A DNA stretch of 64,000 nucleotides from Beijerinckiaceae bacterium (GTDB lineage: Bacteria; Pseudomonadota; Alphaproteobacteria; Rhizobiales; Beijerinckiaceae): positions 62,001 to 126,000 of the forward strand of contig CANGBX010000003.1 of assembly GCA_947452455.1 (NCBI GenBank). Reading direction: 5' to 3'. Below are positions 57,582-64,000 of the stretch, in pieces (positions within the stretch are counted from its first letter, which is position 1; each line of letters starts with the position of its first letter). The notes beneath the pieces are model-generated. The model searched no databases. It had not been told where the DNA came from and saw nothing but the letters and a program-made list of their open reading frames with translations. A program made the position numbers and the translations under genes.

Positions 57582-58460
57582 ATGGCGCAATTGGCAGGTG
57601 TCGGACGGCAATTCGTCAAGGCGGCTATGTCGGCGCCTTACCTTGAGCGCGAACAGGAACGCTCGCTCGCTGTGCGCTGGAAAGACCAGCGTGATGAGCA
57701 GGCTCTGCATCACTTAGCCCATGCGCATATGCGCCTCGTGATTGCTCTGGCAGGCCGCTTCCGTCATTACGGCTTGCCCGCCGCCGATCTGATTCAGGAA
57801 GGCCATGTCGGCCTGTTGGAAGCAGCCGCCCGTTTCGAGCCTGAGCGTGATGTGCGCTTTTCAACCTATGCGACCTGGTGGATCCGCGCATCCATGCAAG
57901 ACTATATCCTGCGCAATTGGTCGATTGTGCGCGGCGGGACATCCTCTGCGCAAAAGGCGCTCTTCTTCAATCTGCGTCGTCTGCGCGCCAAATTGTCACG
58001 CGATAATTGCCCCGGCGATTCCGCGCGCATTTATGCCACCATCGCGCAGGCCATCGGCGTCTCGAAAGCCGATGTTGCCACAATGGATGCGCGCCTCTCG
58101 GGCCCCGATGTGTCGCTCAATGCGCCAGTGTCGCAGGGTGATGATTCATCCATGTCGGAGCATGTTGAATTTTTGGTCGACAATCGCCCCTTGCCCGACG
58201 AAGTCGTGACAGAAAGTATCGACACCGACCGCCGCATCCATTGGCTGCATGATGCAATGGCGGTTTTGTCAGAGCGTGAAATGCGCATTTTGCGCGAGCG
58301 CCGCCTTGCGGAAGAAAGCGCCACGCTCGAAGCTTTGGGCGACCGTCTCGGCATTTCGAAGGAACGCGTGCGCCAGATTGAAAATCGGGCGATGGAAAAA
58401 CTGCGGCGCGTTTTGATCGAGCGCCATCCGGAAGAAGTGATGGCTCGCACCGGTCCTTAA
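57582..58460 (+). CDS. rpoH: RNA polymerase sigma-32 factor (RpoH family)
   Basis: Heat-shock sigma factor. Region 2 has AHMRLVIALAGRFRHYGLPAADLIQEGHVGLLEAAARFEPERDVRFSTYATWWIRASMQDYILRNWSIVR, and the RpoH box is QKALFFNLRRLRAKL. Region 4 has ESATLEALGDRLGISKERVRQIENRAMEKLR. 292 residues, from ATG 57582 with AGGAG nearby. Rhizobiales often carry two rpoH genes; this one resembles the shorter-leader RpoH2 type, but that is uncertain. A terminator follows. Confidence 0.93.
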   Translation: MAQLAGVGRQFVKAAMSAPYLEREQERSLAVRWKDQRDEQALHHLAHAHMRLVIALAGRFRHYGLPAADLIQEGHVGLLEAAARFEPERDVRFSTYATWWIRASMQDYILRNWSIVRGGTSSAQKALFFNLRRLRAKLSRDNCPGDSARIYATIAQAIGVSKADVATMDARLSGPDVSLNAPVSQGDDSSMSEHVEFLVDNRPLPDEVVTESIDTDRRIHWLHDAMAVLSEREMRILRERRLAEESATLEALGDRLGISKERVRQIENRAMEKLRRVLIERHPEEVMARTGP

Positions 58461-58470
58461 ACAGGACGCA

Positions 58471-58503
58471 TAAAAAAAGCCCGGCAATGCCGGGCTTTCT
58501 TAG
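58471..58503. terminator. Bidirectional terminator between rpoH and carD
   Basis: AAAGCCCGGCA and TGCCGGGCTTT with an A-run before and TTCTT after. It ends the convergent rpoH (plus) and carD (minus) transcripts. Confidence 0.9.
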
Positions 58504-58506
58504 ATC

Positions 58507-60078
58507 TTAGGCCGCCTCTTCGACGTCACCGTCGGCTTCGCCTTCATCGGCATCAATATCGCCGTCGGCAGCATCAACCTCGACATCGACCTTGCCACCA
58601 CGACGCGGGCCCTTTTGCAGCTGCGATTCAATCAGCTTCAAAGATTCCATTTCGGTCAGCTTTTGCACGGCAGCAATTTCACGCGCCATGCGGTCGAGTG
58701 CCGCTTCATAGAGCTGGCGTTCGGAGTAAGATTGTTCGGGCTGTGCATCGGAGCGATACAAATCGCGCACGACTTCTGCGATGGATTGCAGATCGCCCGA
58801 GTTGATCTTGGCTTCATATTCCTGCGCACGACGCGACCACATGGTGCGCTTGATGCGTGCACGACCTGTCAGCGTATCGAGCGCCTTCTGCACGGTTTCC
58901 GCATCAGCCAGCTTGCGGATCGCACCTGCCAGAACTTTCGGCAGCGGCACTTTCAACGTCATTTTGTCTTTGAAGAAATTGATGACGAAGAGTTCGAGCT
59001 TGAAGCCAGCGACTTCCTGCTCTTCGATCGCGATGATCTGGCCCACACCGTGAGCCGGATAAACGATATATTCGCTCTGCTTAAATCCCGAGCGGTTGGC
59101 GCTCGGTTTCGCTGCGGGCTTTTCCGCAGGCTTTGCAGCGGCCGGAGCAGCTGCGGGCTTACCCTTATTCGCAGACCCTGAAGACTTCACACCTTCGTCC
59201 TTCAAAACATAAGTGGGGACGGCCGAAGGTCCGGCCGAAGATCCCACCGCAAGACGCACAGGCGACAATCGCTCAGTTGGAATCGGCGCAGCTTTGGCCG
59301 CTTTGGAAGTTCCCTTCCCTCCCGCTTTTCGTGCGGCGGGAGCGGCCGCTTTCACTGGTGCAACGTCTGGAGCCACTTTTGGTTCCGGTGCGGCACTCTT
59401 CTTTTTTGTGGCCGCCTTTTCAGCGGGTTTAGCCTTGTCTTCTGCCTTGGCGGGCTTTTCAGCCGCTTTGGCAGGCGCTGCCTTCTCAGGCGCCTTGGCT
59501 TTCACAGTTTCTTTGGTCGCAGGCTTTTCAGCCTTGGCGGGAGCTTTAGCGGCAGGAGCTGCCTTACTCGCGGGCTTGGCGGCCTCTTTGGCGGATTTGG
59601 CAGGAGCCTTTTCTGGAGCCTTTTCTGGCGCCTTCACAGCCGCTTTGGCCGGTGCCTTGGCGACCGGCTTCTCAGCTTTCTTCTCAGGGGCCTTGGCAGG
59701 CGCTTTGACTGCGGCTTTGGCGGGGGCTTTAGCGGCGGGCTTGTCGGGGGTCTTCGCCGGAGCCTTCGCAGGAGCCTTGGCGGGAACCTTGGCAGGCGCT
59801 TTCACAGCAGCCTTAGCGGAAGCCTTGGCAGCAGCTTTGGCAGGAGCTTTGACAGGAGCCTTCACAGGGGCCTTGGCGGCTGCTTTGGCAGCAGCAGCCT
59901 TTTTGTCGGCTTTCTTGTCGGCCTTCTTGTCAGCCTTGGTCACAACAGGCGCCTTGGTCTTTGCAGCCTGAGCTTTCGTCTCGGTCTTACCCTTGGCAGA
60001 AGCCGCGGAACCTGACTTTGAGCCGGACTTGGAGCTCTTTGATTTCGATGCGGTGACGGTCTTCTTCGACGACGCCAT
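58507..60078 (-). CDS. carD: CarD-family regulator with long histone H1-like N-terminal tail
   Basis: CarD/CdnL proteins bind the RNA polymerase beta subunit and stabilise open complexes. The last 196 residues are a full CarD protein: SEYIVYPAHGVGQIIAIEEQEVAGFKLELFVINF, then MTLKVPL, the WSRRAQEYEAKINSGDLQSIAEVVRDLYR helices, and an acidic tail (DADEGEADGDVEEAA). It is preceded by about 327 residues made mainly of Lys, Ala and Pro in KAPAKAP-type repeats, as in histone H1 tails. ATG 60078 (MASSKKTVTASKSKS), AAGGAGT upstream, gives 523 residues; the usual family size is about 165-230. The tail is in frame, without a break. Confidence 0.93.
   Translation of the reverse strand: MASSKKTVTASKSKSSKSGSKSGSAASAKGKTETKAQAAKTKAPVVTKADKKADKKADKKAAAAKAAAKAPVKAPVKAPAKAAAKASAKAAVKAPAKVPAKAPAKAPAKTPDKPAAKAPAKAAVKAPAKAPEKKAEKPVAKAPAKAAVKAPEKAPEKAPAKSAKEAAKPASKAAPAAKAPAKAEKPATKETVKAKAPEKAAPAKAAEKPAKAEDKAKPAEKAATKKKSAAPEPKVAPDVAPVKAAAPAARKAGGKGTSKAAKAAPIPTERLSPVRLAVGSSAGPSAVPTYVLKDEGVKSSGSANKGKPAAAPAAAKPAEKPAAKPSANRSGFKQSEYIVYPAHGVGQIIAIEEQEVAGFKLELFVINFFKDKMTLKVPLPKVLAGAIRKLADAETVQKALDTLTGRARIKRTMWSRRAQEYEAKINSGDLQSIAEVVRDLYRSDAQPEQSYSERQLYEAALDRMAREIAAVQKLTEMESLKLIESQLQKGPRRGGKVDVEVDAADGDIDADEGEADGDVEEAA
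59250..60000 (-). repeat. Degenerate tandem repeat coding for the KAPAKAP tail of CarD
   Basis: This stretch is built from variants of a 9-12-base unit (GCCAAGGCTCCT, GCAAAGCCTGCC and relatives) coding for K-A-P, K-A-A and K-A-P-A. Codon choice varies between units, so the protein pattern is better kept than the DNA. The reverse strand shows an apparent open frame rich in Ala/Gly that is only a shadow of this repeat. Confidence 0.85.
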
Positions 60079-60482
60079 AACGTGGGCACTCCTTGTCATG
60101 CCCCGGGATTGGAAACCGGGACGGGGGCCGGGAGCGATACGCTCTCCCGGTGCGGAGCCCAGCACACCTACCAGCACAGGTCACCCTCCCTTCAGGCGGT
60201 GGCCAGACGGCAAAATGCGCGACTCCTCAGTCGCTTCGCGATGTGTTCGGATGTCAAACTCCGCCGCTGGCCAAGGCCGTGGCAGAGCCCCTGTTTGACT
60301 CTGGGTCAGGCTCAAGCCCGACCAAAACCGACACGAAAACAGAAAACTCGACTGTTAATACTATCAGTAACACAAAAATCGCACGAAATCAAAGAATTCC
60401 GGCCCGACGGGCAGGCTTTGCCCCCGGCTGGTTAACTTTTGTGACAATCAAAGCCGCAGTTTTTGCAACTTTAATTGGCTGA
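60079..60482 (-). other. 404-base intergenic region between fdxA and carD, probable carD promoter
   Basis: No gene is seen. A promoter-like pair on the minus strand is TTGATT (60387-60392) and, 17 bases on, TACTGA (60364-60369), overlapped by the 11-base palindrome TACTATCAGTA; an alternative -10 is TAGTAT next to it. The long leader of nearly 290 bases to the carD start would be unusual. No convincing fdxA terminator is found here. Confidence 0.35.
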
Positions 60483-60821
60483 TCAGTCGCCTTGACCGGG
60501 CTTGTTCGAGAAATGAGCCTCGAATTTGCCGGGCTTGCCGTCCCAATCCTTGGCGTCATCCGGCGGCTCGCGCTTGACCGTGATGTTGGGCCAGGACTTG
60601 GCCATATCGGCATTGAGGGTCAGCCACTTTTCAAGGCCCGGCTCCGTATCCGGCTTGATGGCCTCAGCCGGGCATTCCGGCTCGCAGACGCCGCAATCGA
60701 TACATTCATCGGGATGGATGACGAGCATATTTTCGCCCTCGTAGAAACAGTCCACGGGGCAAACCTCCACGCAATCCATATATTTGCACTTGATGCAATT
60801 TTCGCCGACGACGTAGGTCAT
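60483..60821 (-). CDS. fdxA: Seven-iron ferredoxin FdxA
   Basis: Ferredoxin with a [3Fe-4S] and a [4Fe-4S] cluster. The N-terminus is [54 protein letters not shown], with the cysteine pattern of the FdxA (azotobacter FdI-like) family, followed by a C-terminal extension of about 50 residues. The ATG at 60821 follows GGAGATCGGA. 112 residues; the longer frame is not family sequence. The order carD-fdxA-S4-helicase is typical of Rhizobiales. Confidence 0.95.
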
Positions 60822-60927
60822 TCCGATCTCCAGATGCGGCACCGCCCATGCCGCCGCTTTTCTATGATGTTCGTTTGCTAGCGCCTTCAGCCGAGCCGCG
60901 CAAGAACCCCTAGTAAAAGAGAAGAAT

Positions 60928-61308
60928 TCACTCCTGATCAAGCCATGCGGATAATTGGCGGCGATCGCGCTTGGTCGGGCGCCCCGCGCCCTGATCACGC
61001 ACCGGCCCCAGATCCGGCAGGGCATCCTTGGCAGGAGGCTCGGGCGATAAATCCTCAAAGAGAAGGCGGGCTTCTTCAAAAGGGCCGCGCCGCTCGCCAG
61101 GCTCAAGCACTTTCAAGATGCGCACCTGGCGTTCCAGCGAAATGGTCAGCACATCACCGGGACTGAGCGCTTTGGCGGGTGCATCGACCTTCTGGGCGTT
61201 CACACGCACATGCCCCTCGCTCACGAGTTTGGCCGCGAGCGTGCGCGTTTTCACAACGCGGGCAAACCAGAGCCATTTATCGAGGCGCTGCCGACCCGCT
61301 GCCGCCAT
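60928..61308 (-). CDS. S4-domain RNA-binding protein (Hsp15-like)
   Basis: 126-residue RNA-binding protein related to heat-shock protein 15, which recycles stalled 50S subunits. The S4 domain covers residues 6-70: [50 protein letters not shown] basic C-terminus has [13 protein letters not shown]. It overlaps the helicase stop by one base (TAATG), so the two are translationally coupled and may both act on structured RNA. Confidence 0.92.
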
Positions 61309-64000
61309 TAGTCTTTCTTCTTTGCCTCAAGCTCGCCTTTCAGAGCCAAAAGCTTGGCAAAAGGCGAATTGGGGTCGGGCTGGCGCTCGCGACCGGCTGG
61401 CTTTTCGGTCGAGGCAAAGGTGCGATCACCGCCACGACGCTGGTCGTTGCGGTCGGGGCGACCCTTGCCACCCTTGTGCGGCGGACGACCCCCGCGATTG
61501 TCGGGACGGCCTTCGCCTTCACGACGGAAGTTGGCAAATTTGCCGCGACGATCTTCGCGCTTTTGTCCTTCAGCGCCACCTTCTGTCGCAGGCTGAGCTT
61601 CAGTCGGCTTCTGGTCACCACGCGCATGTTGCGGACGGCCTTTGCCGCGCTCGGGTCGCTGACCACGATTGACGCGATGCGGACGCCAGACTTCGATGAG
61701 TTCCGGTTCTGCAACAACGGCAGCTTCTGTTTCAGATCCAGCTTCAACAACAGGTGTTTCAGCAATGGCCTCGACAGGTGCTTGTTCAACAGGCGCTGTC
61801 TCTTCAACAGGCGCGACCACTTCAGCTGGCGCTTCGCTTGGTGTTTGCGTTGCTTCTTCTGTCACCGGCTTCAAAGCTTCGCGAGACGCTTCAGCCAGCA
61901 GAGGAACAGTAATCGCAGGGCCCGCGCGCTTGTCGCTTTGATAACCCAGCGAACGCAGGATGGTGGAGAAAGCTTCTCCCGAACAACCGGCCAGCGATGT
62001 CATGGCAACAGTGACGACAAAACCTTCGCCATCAGCACTGCCTGCTGGCGGCTCACCGGCTGTCACGCCCGGACGATAAGCAATCGCGGGACGAATGAGA
62101 TCGGCCAAGCGCTCCAGAATATCGACACGCACGCAGCGTTCGCCGCAGACGCGGAAACCTGCTGCGCGATAAAAGCCCTTTGGCACAGCCTTATCTGCTG
62201 CAAAAGAGGTGCGGCCCGAGGCTGCCAGATGCGGCACTTCATCAATGCCTGCGACACCTTCAATGCCGCCATGTTTCAGCGCCCACAATTGCGCAGCCAA
62301 AGCGCGCGGTGCGGGCTTCAACAAAGCCGGCATGTAAATGTGGTAAGCGCCAAAGCGAATGCCGACTTTGCGCAAAGCCGCACGACCATCTTGATCGAGA
62401 GCCTTCACATCGTCTGCAACTTTTCCACGCTCCAACACGCCGAGCGATTCGGCGACTTGGAACGCAATGCCGCGGCCCATGCCTTCAAGGCCTTCGCCCT
62501 TTTCCAGATCCTGCAAAGGTCCGAGCAATTTCTTGATATGCGCTGCAAGCCACAAATCCAGACGCGCTTGCACCAACTCAAGCGCAGGACCTGTCAGCTG
62601 TTCATCGGCCAGCACGCGCACGCGCGGTGACAGCACATGATCGCCGGCGACCATTTTGCCGACAGCTTCACCAAGCCAGCGGATCGTGCCGTCATTGGCG
62701 AGAACGAAAGCTTCATCCACCGCTTCATGAATGCGTTGTGCGCGGCCTTCGATTTCGCTCGCCAAGGCTTTCTGTGCGGCCGCATTCAGCGTGCGCGCAG
62801 CCTCGCCATCGGCTTGCGGATCCGCGGTAAAGCGAAACCCATGAAGTTGACCAATGTGCTGACCCTCGACCAGCACATCCCCATTTGCGGTGATTTCCGC
62901 TTCCAACATCGCATTCTCTCTCAAGCGGCGCATCAGAACGCTCGTTCTCCGGTCCACGAACCGTTGGGCGAGGCGCTCATGTAAAGCGTCCGAAAGACTG
63001 TCCTCTACCTGACGCGTGACGCCCTGCCAATGCTCTGGATCACGCAACCAGTCCGGTCTGTTCGAAATGTAGTTGAAGGTTCGCACCTGTGCGATACGGG
63101 CCGAGAGGGCATCGATGTCCCCATCCGTGCGATTGAAGGCCTCCAAATGCCTTGAAAACCACTCATCAGGCACGCGCCCTGCCCGCACGACATAGCCATA
63201 GAGCGTCAGCACCAGCTCGGCATGGGCCGCTGGGGACAACTTTCGGTAATCGGGGACCTGACAGACCTCCCAGAGCCGCTGAATGTCGGCCCGTGTCTTG
63301 GATTGGCGCTGCACATCGGCATCACGCGAGACGAAATCCAGCACGATCACATCTTCGGCCAAAGGCGCGCGGGTCAGCCCCGGCTCATCGGGCAGGCGCT
63401 CCAGCGAGGCTTGCAAAGCCTCAATGGAGGAAAAGTCGAGCTGCGCATTGCGCCATTGAAAAAGGGTCAGCGGATCAAACCGGTGCTGCTCCAGCATTTC
63501 GACGAGCTCTTCATCGAAGGGCGGGCACCGTCCGGTCGTGCCAAATGTGCCATCGCGAATATGGCGTCCGGCACGCCCGGCAATCTGTGCCATTTCGGAG
63601 GGCTTGAGGCGGCGATATTGCCAGCCGTCATATTTGCGGTCTCCCGCAAAGGCGACGTGATCGACATCGAGATTGAGGCCCATACCGATCGCATCGGTCG
63701 CAATAATGTAATCGACTTCGCCATTCTGGTAGAGCTCGACTTGCGCATTGCGTGTGCGCGGGCTGAGCGCGCCTAACACGACAGCCGCACCACCGCGTGT
63801 GCGGCGAATGAGTTCGGCAATGGCGTAAACTTCTTCTGCCGAGAAAGCGACAATCGCCGAGCGGCGCGGCAAGCGCGAGAGTTTGCGCTCTCCTGCAAAG
63901 GTCAATTGCGACAGACGCGGACGCGTGACAATAGTCACGCCCGGCAAGAGGCGCTCGATCAGACCGCGCACAGTTTCTGCGCCCAGTAGAAGCGTTTCTT
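61308..64000 (-). CDS. Suv3-type superfamily 2 RNA helicase, C-terminal part (5' end outside window)
   Basis: The large SF2 helicase conserved in alphaproteobacteria and related to mitochondrial Suv3. The frame is open to the right edge (ETLLLGAETVRGLIERLLPG in front), so the ATPase N-domain lies outside. Helicase motifs visible are SRLPRRSAIVAFSAEEVYAI, DYIIATDAIGMGLNLDVDHVAF (motif V) and SEMAQIAGRAGRHIRDGTFG (motif VI). A Suv3-C-like middle follows. After about residue 700 the protein becomes an acidic Ala/Pro/Glu stretch and then an Arg/Gly/Lys-rich tail with repeats of RPxNRGGRPPHKGGKGRP type, a likely RNA-binding tail. Coupled to the S4 gene. Confidence 0.9.
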   Translation of the reverse strand, partial: ETLLLGAETVRGLIERLLPGVTIVTRPRLSQLTFAGERKLSRLPRRSAIVAFSAEEVYAIAELIRRTRGGAAVVLGALSPRTRNAQVELYQNGEVDYIIATDAIGMGLNLDVDHVAFAGDRKYDGWQYRRLKPSEMAQIAGRAGRHIRDGTFGTTGRCPPFDEELVEMLEQHRFDPLTLFQWRNAQLDFSSIEALQASLERLPDEPGLTRAPLAEDVIVLDFVSRDADVQRQSKTRADIQRLWEVCQVPDYRKLSPAAHAELVLTLYGYVVRAGRVPDEWFSRHLEAFNRTDGDIDALSARIAQVRTFNYISNRPDWLRDPEHWQGVTRQVEDSLSDALHERLAQRFVDRRTSVLMRRLRENAMLEAEITANGDVLVEGQHIGQLHGFRFTADPQADGEAARTLNAAAQKALASEIEGRAQRIHEAVDEAFVLANDGTIRWLGEAVGKMVAGDHVLSPRVRVLADEQLTGPALELVQARLDLWLAAHIKKLLGPLQDLEKGEGLEGMGRGIAFQVAESLGVLERGKVADDVKALDQDGRAALRKVGIRFGAYHIYMPALLKPAPRALAAQLWALKHGGIEGVAGIDEVPHLAASGRTSFAADKAVPKGFYRAAGFRVCGERCVRVDILERLADLIRPAIAYRPGVTAGEPPAGSADGEGFVVTVAMTSLAGCSGEAFSTILRSLGYQSDKRAGPAITVPLLAEASREALKPVTEEATQTPSEAPAEVVAPVEETAPVEQAPVEAIAETPVVEAGSETEAAVVAEPELIEVWRPHRVNRGQRPERGKGRPQHARGDQKPTEAQPATEGGAEGQKREDRRGKFANFRREGEGRPDNRGGRPPHKGGKGRPDRNDQRRGGDRTFASTEKPAGRERQPDPNSPFAKLLALKGELEAKKKD

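Follow-up and report, generated by a model that had tools for sequence, protein, structure and literature searches.

In the excerpts of the cited papers on which this account draws, CdnL figures as the N-terminal domain of CarD in standalone form (PMC5324124), and CarD is said to contact the beta lobe of RNA polymerase and to position a tryptophan at the upstream boundary of the promoter bubble (PMC4593161). The DNA binding of Caulobacter CdnL is weak and non-specific, and the AA end of the protein serves for its turnover (PMC5324124); many alphaproteobacterial sigma-70 promoters have been proposed to need CarD/CdnL (PMC8407463). In myxobacterial CarD, whose partner is CarG, a basic, disordered segment rich in K/A/P is attached to the core that bears the RID. 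In Myxococcus CarD the HMGA part can be exchanged for human H1 or for the disordered tail of H1 (PMC8156234), and the protein keeps reduced activity when its basic disordered part is missing (PMC8156234, PMC4374960). Some myxobacterial CarD proteins, including those of A. dehalogenans and V. incomptus, have an H1-like C-terminal part, and two myxobacterial orthologues lack AT-hooks (PMC9304148). Word searches of the open-access literature found no description of N-terminal tails on CdnL among the matches listed. Since a CarD survey, as excerpted, accepted just proteins of 120-200 residues (PMC4593161), tailed forms would have been left out of it.

The window analysed here is a stretch of 64,000 nucleotides from the genome of a Beijerinckiaceae bacterium (3.05 Mb, 13 contigs, 95.6% complete). 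It contains a cdnL gene whose frame opens with an ATG at 60078 and encodes a 327-residue in-frame tail followed by a 196-residue core (Table 1). An earlier note on this DNA had described the same frame, strand, start and stop, the same core and extension lengths, and an acidic C-terminus, all of which we recovered; the final residues of the protein are AA, as they are in 186/197 of the CdnL rows described below. The scanned neighbours of cdnL encode a sigma-70-family protein, a ferredoxin-type protein, an S4 protein, a helicase and a dienelactone hydrolase. The Helicase_C protein at 61308-63971 (-) has a long, low-complexity C-terminal part rich in K, R, G and E. A 252-codon antisense frame crosses the tail repeat at 59213-59971 (+); it has no Pfam match and was set aside as a gene, being probably a by-product of the repeat.

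Table 1. Features of the cdnL locus, in window coordinates.
Feature	Position	Strand	Basis or remark
cdnL/carD coding sequence	58507..60078	-	523 aa + stop
N-terminal K/A/P tail, residues 1-327	59098..60078	-	composition, selection, frame-keeping indels, pLDDT
RNA polymerase interaction domain CarD_TRCF_RID, residues 332-389	58912..59085	-	Pfam
CarD C-terminal helical domain CarD_C, residues 398-483	58630..58887	-	Pfam; holds W414, R416, R417, Y451, R454
Acidic C-terminal end, last residues AA	58510..58599	-	sequence; candidate Clp degron, by comparison with Caulobacter CdnL
Shine-Dalgarno AAGGAG serving the start codon of the tail	60089..60094	-	sequence, start-site analysis
Hairpin directly upstream of the Shine-Dalgarno	60100..60122	-	stem covaries in relatives
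Internal GTG, candidate minor second start	59188..59190	-	31 codons before the core, AGGA upstream
Tail motif RLSPVRLAVGSSAGPS	59224..59271	-	alignments; kept in nearest relatives

Both CdnL domains were detected in the window protein (PF02559, 41.3 bits against a cut-off of 23; PF21095, 82.3 bits against 23.1), in agreement with the complete core reported earlier. A phmmer search of PDB sequences returned CdnL/CarD matches, the best being M. xanthus CdnL (2lwj; 2.5e-22). When the modelled core was compared with known structures using Foldseek, it matched CarD chains, among them that of the M. tuberculosis open promoter complex (6edt_M; TM-score by target length, 0.89) and that of M. xanthus CdnL (2lwj; 0.57). 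Residues P378, W414, R416, R417, Y451 and R454, a functional set that covers the wedge tryptophan, the basic patch and the contact with the beta lobe, were invariant in 46/46 aligned rows. They correspond to P54, W90, R92, R93, Y127 and R130 of Caulobacter CdnL by a constant offset of 324, which we applied by hand to the residue numbers given in the excerpted text of PMC5324124; under the same offset V39 and R52 become L363 and K376, so that two of the eight residues compared differ. The open-complex control that the earlier note had proposed is thus supported by homology, through the six invariant residues and the match of the model to open-complex CarD, and we infer that the core binds the beta subunit of RNA polymerase and gives open complexes greater stability.

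The best reading of the sequence is that the window protein is a housekeeping CdnL with an added arm. It has the two core domains of Caulobacter and M. xanthus CdnL, its six functional residues are identical by offset to those of Caulobacter, and it shares the AA end with Caulobacter. Those proteins are standalone, with a core and no further domains, whereas the window protein adds the 327-residue N-terminal tail and is therefore filed as a CdnL variant and not as a typical standalone CdnL. In its own genome one further RID match was detected, in a 1185-residue open frame that is presumably Mfd, and the RID matches of this 95.6% complete assembly thus include no second CdnL.

Residues 1-327 comprise 76 K, 109 A, 41 P and 3 R, giving a net charge of +56 and a K:R ratio of 76:3. 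The earlier wording, that the extension is almost all Lys, Ala and Pro, holds for its general character but is slightly strong, as K+A+P amounts to 69% (226/327). Lysine pairs four residues apart number 39, versus a mean of 8.0 and a maximum of 20 in 2000 shuffles, and repeats are also visible at the DNA level; the RGRP motif does not occur in the tail. Using a 46-sequence alignment, AlphaFold2 assigned residues 1-330 no secondary structure and a pLDDT of 45-57 per ten-residue block; the pLDDT was 73-93 for residues 331-490 and dropped again at the acidic C-terminal end. The tail is accordingly predicted to be disordered, and its composition, lysine spacing and low pLDDT bear out the proposal of a charge-patterned low-complexity segment, here a disordered polycation. 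It thus has the make-up of an H1-like tail, that is, a disordered K/A/P repeat in which K far exceeds R. When the tail was used as a query, its sole match at E <=0.001 was itself (150/246 first-look candidates scored). Within the tail, the motif RLSPVRLAVGSSAGPS has hardly changed in the relatives L003, L093 and L094, and it can still be made out in L006, while the surrounding repeat drifts; VTQKK-like motifs recur in other relatives.

The tail is under purifying selection. Compared with its nearest relative, L003, it had a dN/dS of 0.097 (core, 0.045), with 96.5 synonymous and 36.5 non-synonymous changes and 101/133 differences at third positions. The values against L093, L094 and L095 were 0.187, 0.161 and 0.121, respectively, with synonymous sites saturated in L095; these estimates come from protein-guided alignments, which on repeats may overstate conservation at larger distances. 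A frame-blind DNA alignment with L003 placed five gaps within the tail, of 6, 12, 24, 12 and 9 bases, and the remaining gaps were single bases in the non-coding region before the start. Since the indels in the tail are multiples of three and the relatives keep the frame, a frameshift or artefact within the repeat of the window was ruled out.

The ATG of the tail is preceded by AAGGAG, a strong Shine-Dalgarno site, and there is no later in-frame ATG between it and the core. We considered whether an internal start might instead deliver a short CdnL as the principal form, with the long form a minor or regulated product. The candidate GTG 31 codons before the core has an AGGA upstream and is GTG in 5/5 sequences compared, the window included, and in Xanthobacteraceae-type loci an AAGGAG and ATG adjoin the core while the in-frame frame extends upstream. 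The AGGA is missing in L093, however, 10/19 of the valines in the tail are encoded by GTG, its most frequent codon for that residue, and the distal ATG has the stronger site, which leaves such an isoform switch very improbable. The full-length protein, tail plus core, is the product best supported by the sequence, and a minor short isoform from the internal GTG is possible.

The Xanthobacteraceae-type relatives (L039, L044, L049, L055, L058, L060, L061, L073, L075, L076 and similar loci) have a basic in-frame extension into cdnL that begins at a conserved GTG, 64-78 codons before the core, and this GTG is preceded by a different hairpin, GGCGTG...CACGC. As AAGGAG and ATG stand right before the core in all 15 loci inspected, we set aside the idea that this extension is a hidden tail. 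With a median dN/dS of 0.4 (105 pairs) versus 0.094 for the core, the extension may yet be a tail, and dual starts of cdnL are possible in these loci.

Among the matches listed, the core was found in 385/397 genomes of the order, 195/199 of the family and 208/240 of the class, and the best 80 loci among the core matches of relatives were mixed, long K/A/P-rich extensions being present in many and absent from many. A set of 80 stretches was retrieved. Outside the order of the window, we compared 36 genomes with a listed open frame of at least 250 and four with shorter frames; the 36 are part of the eligible rows, with G610, G619, G624, G721 and G748 among those left. A tail was present in 27/36 of the long-frame genomes and 0/4 of the short-frame ones, across 17 family codes, but since the 36 were chosen for their long frames, this fraction gives no prevalence. 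The earlier view that CarD/CdnL proteins normally consist of the core alone needs correction for Alphaproteobacteria, where K/A/P-rich N-terminal extensions recur, and the proposed genome comparison for tail-plus-CarD proteins found the architecture in other genomes and so removed its uniqueness.

To classify tails, we took the best 60-residue window of each extension and called a tail at K >=12 and K+A+P >=42%, which gave 91 tails, 102 rows without and 4 undeterminable among 197 CdnL rows; the rule labels as tail-less some long but less K-rich extensions (e.g. L017, L027, L043, L086, L104, L120 and L132). The 197 rows leave out the window copies L002 and L083, the Mfd-type L001, the stub L182 and loci from the own-genome hairpin-model and tail-query searches; several rows are one genome from two collections, and the picks are biased. 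An initial rule, applied to the last 100 residues before the core with a FastTree tree (74 tails, 120 without, 3 unknown, 27 changes), was replaced because long tails with the K-rich part further out were mislabelled. On a quick tree of the 197 rows, tail state changed at least 25 times, with 8 changes forced by starred branches, versus a mean of 64.6 for shuffled labels; as this count does not separate gain from loss, an old tail with many losses is possible.

The 91 tails had a median length of 206 residues (64-531); the count starts at the first in-frame ATG, or where the frame opens, and so takes in some residues that are not part of the repeat. Their net charge was positive in every case, with a median of +41 (10-79). 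K exceeded R in 90/91. The modal K-K spacing was 4 in 33/91 and 5 in 31/91, and a spacing of 4 was enriched (z >3) in only 25/91. Across the rows examined, basic composition is therefore kept while length and sequence drift. That the tail is a near-neutral repeat expansion, a tolerated disordered insert between start and core that is weakly constrained as basic, would suit the widely varying lengths, the DNA-level repeats, the tail-less same-family relatives and the number of changes on the tree, but it has to be set against the purifying selection on the tail and the near-uniform excess of K and positive charge, and we regard it as quite improbable. Basic CdnL function does not depend on the tail, as same-family relatives, among them L166-L174, lack it. 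L103, L109, L110 and L111 have long in-frame upstream extensions with a net charge of just +1 to +9; together with tails as low as +10, these weakly basic extensions fit poorly with a uniform DNA-grip role.

The first residues, M-x-x-x-KK, are common to tailed (L003, L026 from Methylocapsa acidiphila, L098) and tail-less (L029, L032, L068, L166, L171) relatives, and given these shared residues the tail looks as if it had grown between the start and the core. In L052 (Rhodoblastus SSC7), the open frame reaches back only 67 codons from the core, while the start-site hairpin lies 1184 bases upstream; there is probably a frame break within the tail in that assembly, which is titled a complete genome.

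Many long-tailed relatives of the clade of the window have a short hairpin directly upstream of the Shine-Dalgarno site, which we modelled as R1 (window 60073-60130 (-)). Covariation was assessed on 42 sites chosen for showing the hairpin or a start with AGGAG; RNAalifold gave 6 pairs, and a 7-pair stem was named by hand on the same alignment. In this stem 90.1% of cells were paired, 6 pairs had double changes, and 35 cells were changed on both sides versus 12.8 in shuffles (0/500). The loop UCC could pair with the Shine-Dalgarno GGA in 91% of cells, but this pairing was rejected, as it has no double changes and the loops of L013, L015, L019 and L022 lack UCC-type complementarity. The model recovered L012, L041 and L052, all outside the training set, and gave weak matches in the long-tailed loci L028 (E 0.28) and L059 (E 0.73) and none up to E 1 in the long-tailed L040, L046, L047, L057, L066 and L067. 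The best E among 71 additional loci, most of them more distant or without a tail, was 0.023. The cdnL start site was the sole strong match in the own genome (next E 0.116), and 36/41 genomes of the genus had a match below E 0.001; the match lay directly upstream of cdnL in the own genome and in eight others with a located cdnL. The hairpin sequence of the window itself folds no better than shuffles (z +0.94), and a known RNA family was ruled out, as an Rfam search of 58000-61000 returned nothing at gathering score. Hairpin-based translational control of cdnL is possible and is offered as a lead; it would fit the long 5' regions reported for alphaproteobacterial cdnL in the excerpts of PMC5324124 and the finding, as cited in the excerpted PMC10232725, that R. 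sphaeroides CarD represses its own promoter.

With regard to known basic arms, the earlier note had contrasted the window protein with Myxococcus CarD. The contrast in position stands, as the basic part of myxobacterial CarD is C-terminal and that of the window CdnL is N-terminal, with an acidic C-terminus; to the HMGA-like part that the note named, the H1-like myxobacterial forms in the excerpts of PMC9304148 have to be added. Myxobacterial CarD usually has AT-hooks (RGRP), which the window tail lacks, and coexists with a separate CdnL, whereas none was found in the 95.6% complete own genome. Since the basic part is at the opposite end, RGRP is absent and no second CdnL was found, we rejected membership in myxobacterial CarD. 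The tails of Pseudomonas AlgP and PhaF are, like that of the window, disordered K/A/P repeats with a four-residue unit, but they are C-terminal on unrelated N-terminal domains, and the excerpts name no RNA polymerase partner for them.

Taken together, we lean towards a reading in which the arm grips DNA near the promoter and prolongs the stay of CdnL and polymerase there. The core would bind the polymerase beta lobe, as in its relatives, and insert its tryptophan as a wedge at the upstream end of the promoter bubble, thereby stabilising open complexes. Ahead of it, the translated and predictedly disordered K/A/P arm would provide a non-specific electrostatic grip on nearby DNA, lengthening the stay of CdnL and hence of promoter-bound polymerase, and the AA-ending C-terminus probably marks the protein for Clp turnover, by analogy with Caulobacter. 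The window CdnL may in this respect work like Myxococcus CarD, its arm doing the job of the C-terminal HMGA/H1-like part from the other end. DNA binding by the tail would be consistent with the in vitro binding of DNA by AlgP KPAA-repeat peptides reported in the excerpts of PMC9239181, and with the DNA binding described for the HMGA/H1-like part of Myxococcus CarD. According to excerpts of PMC5324124, a Caulobacter strain with N-terminally FLAG-tagged CdnL alone could not be made, which argues that an N-terminal addition is not automatically harmless.

Two other roles for a polycationic arm were weighed. The protein could be a nucleoid protein fused to a polymerase factor, its tail binding the chromosome broadly in an H1-like manner and compacting it while the core couples this to transcription. 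The resemblance of the tail to H1-like tails such as that of AlgP points this way, and its length and charge appear to go beyond what local contact would need, but mycobacterial CdnL/CarD is, in the excerpts consulted, placed at promoters through RNA polymerase, and we judge this reading unlikely. It is the composition of the tail that suggests bulk DNA compaction or condensates, both of which had been proposed earlier. Similarly, the main ligand of the tail could be a polyanion other than DNA (polyphosphate or RNA), which would bring CdnL into granules or condensates or adjust it during starvation. AlgP, with its KPAA-repeat tail, is found on polyphosphate granules and needs that tail for their spacing, as excerpted from PMC9239181; nothing at the present locus points to polyphosphate or RNA, though, and the partner of the core is RNA polymerase at promoters, making this reading improbable.

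Tailed CdnL offers a natural counterpart to the HMGA/H1 arm that Myxococcus CarD carries at its other end. A bolder and doubtful extension is that Alphaproteobacteria repeatedly made CdnL into an H1-like chromatin protein, joining initiation and nucleoid organisation in one molecule, with its dose set by the hairpin in some lineages. The recurrence of the H1-like arm makes it testable whether a non-specific grip on DNA tunes the lifetime of open complexes.
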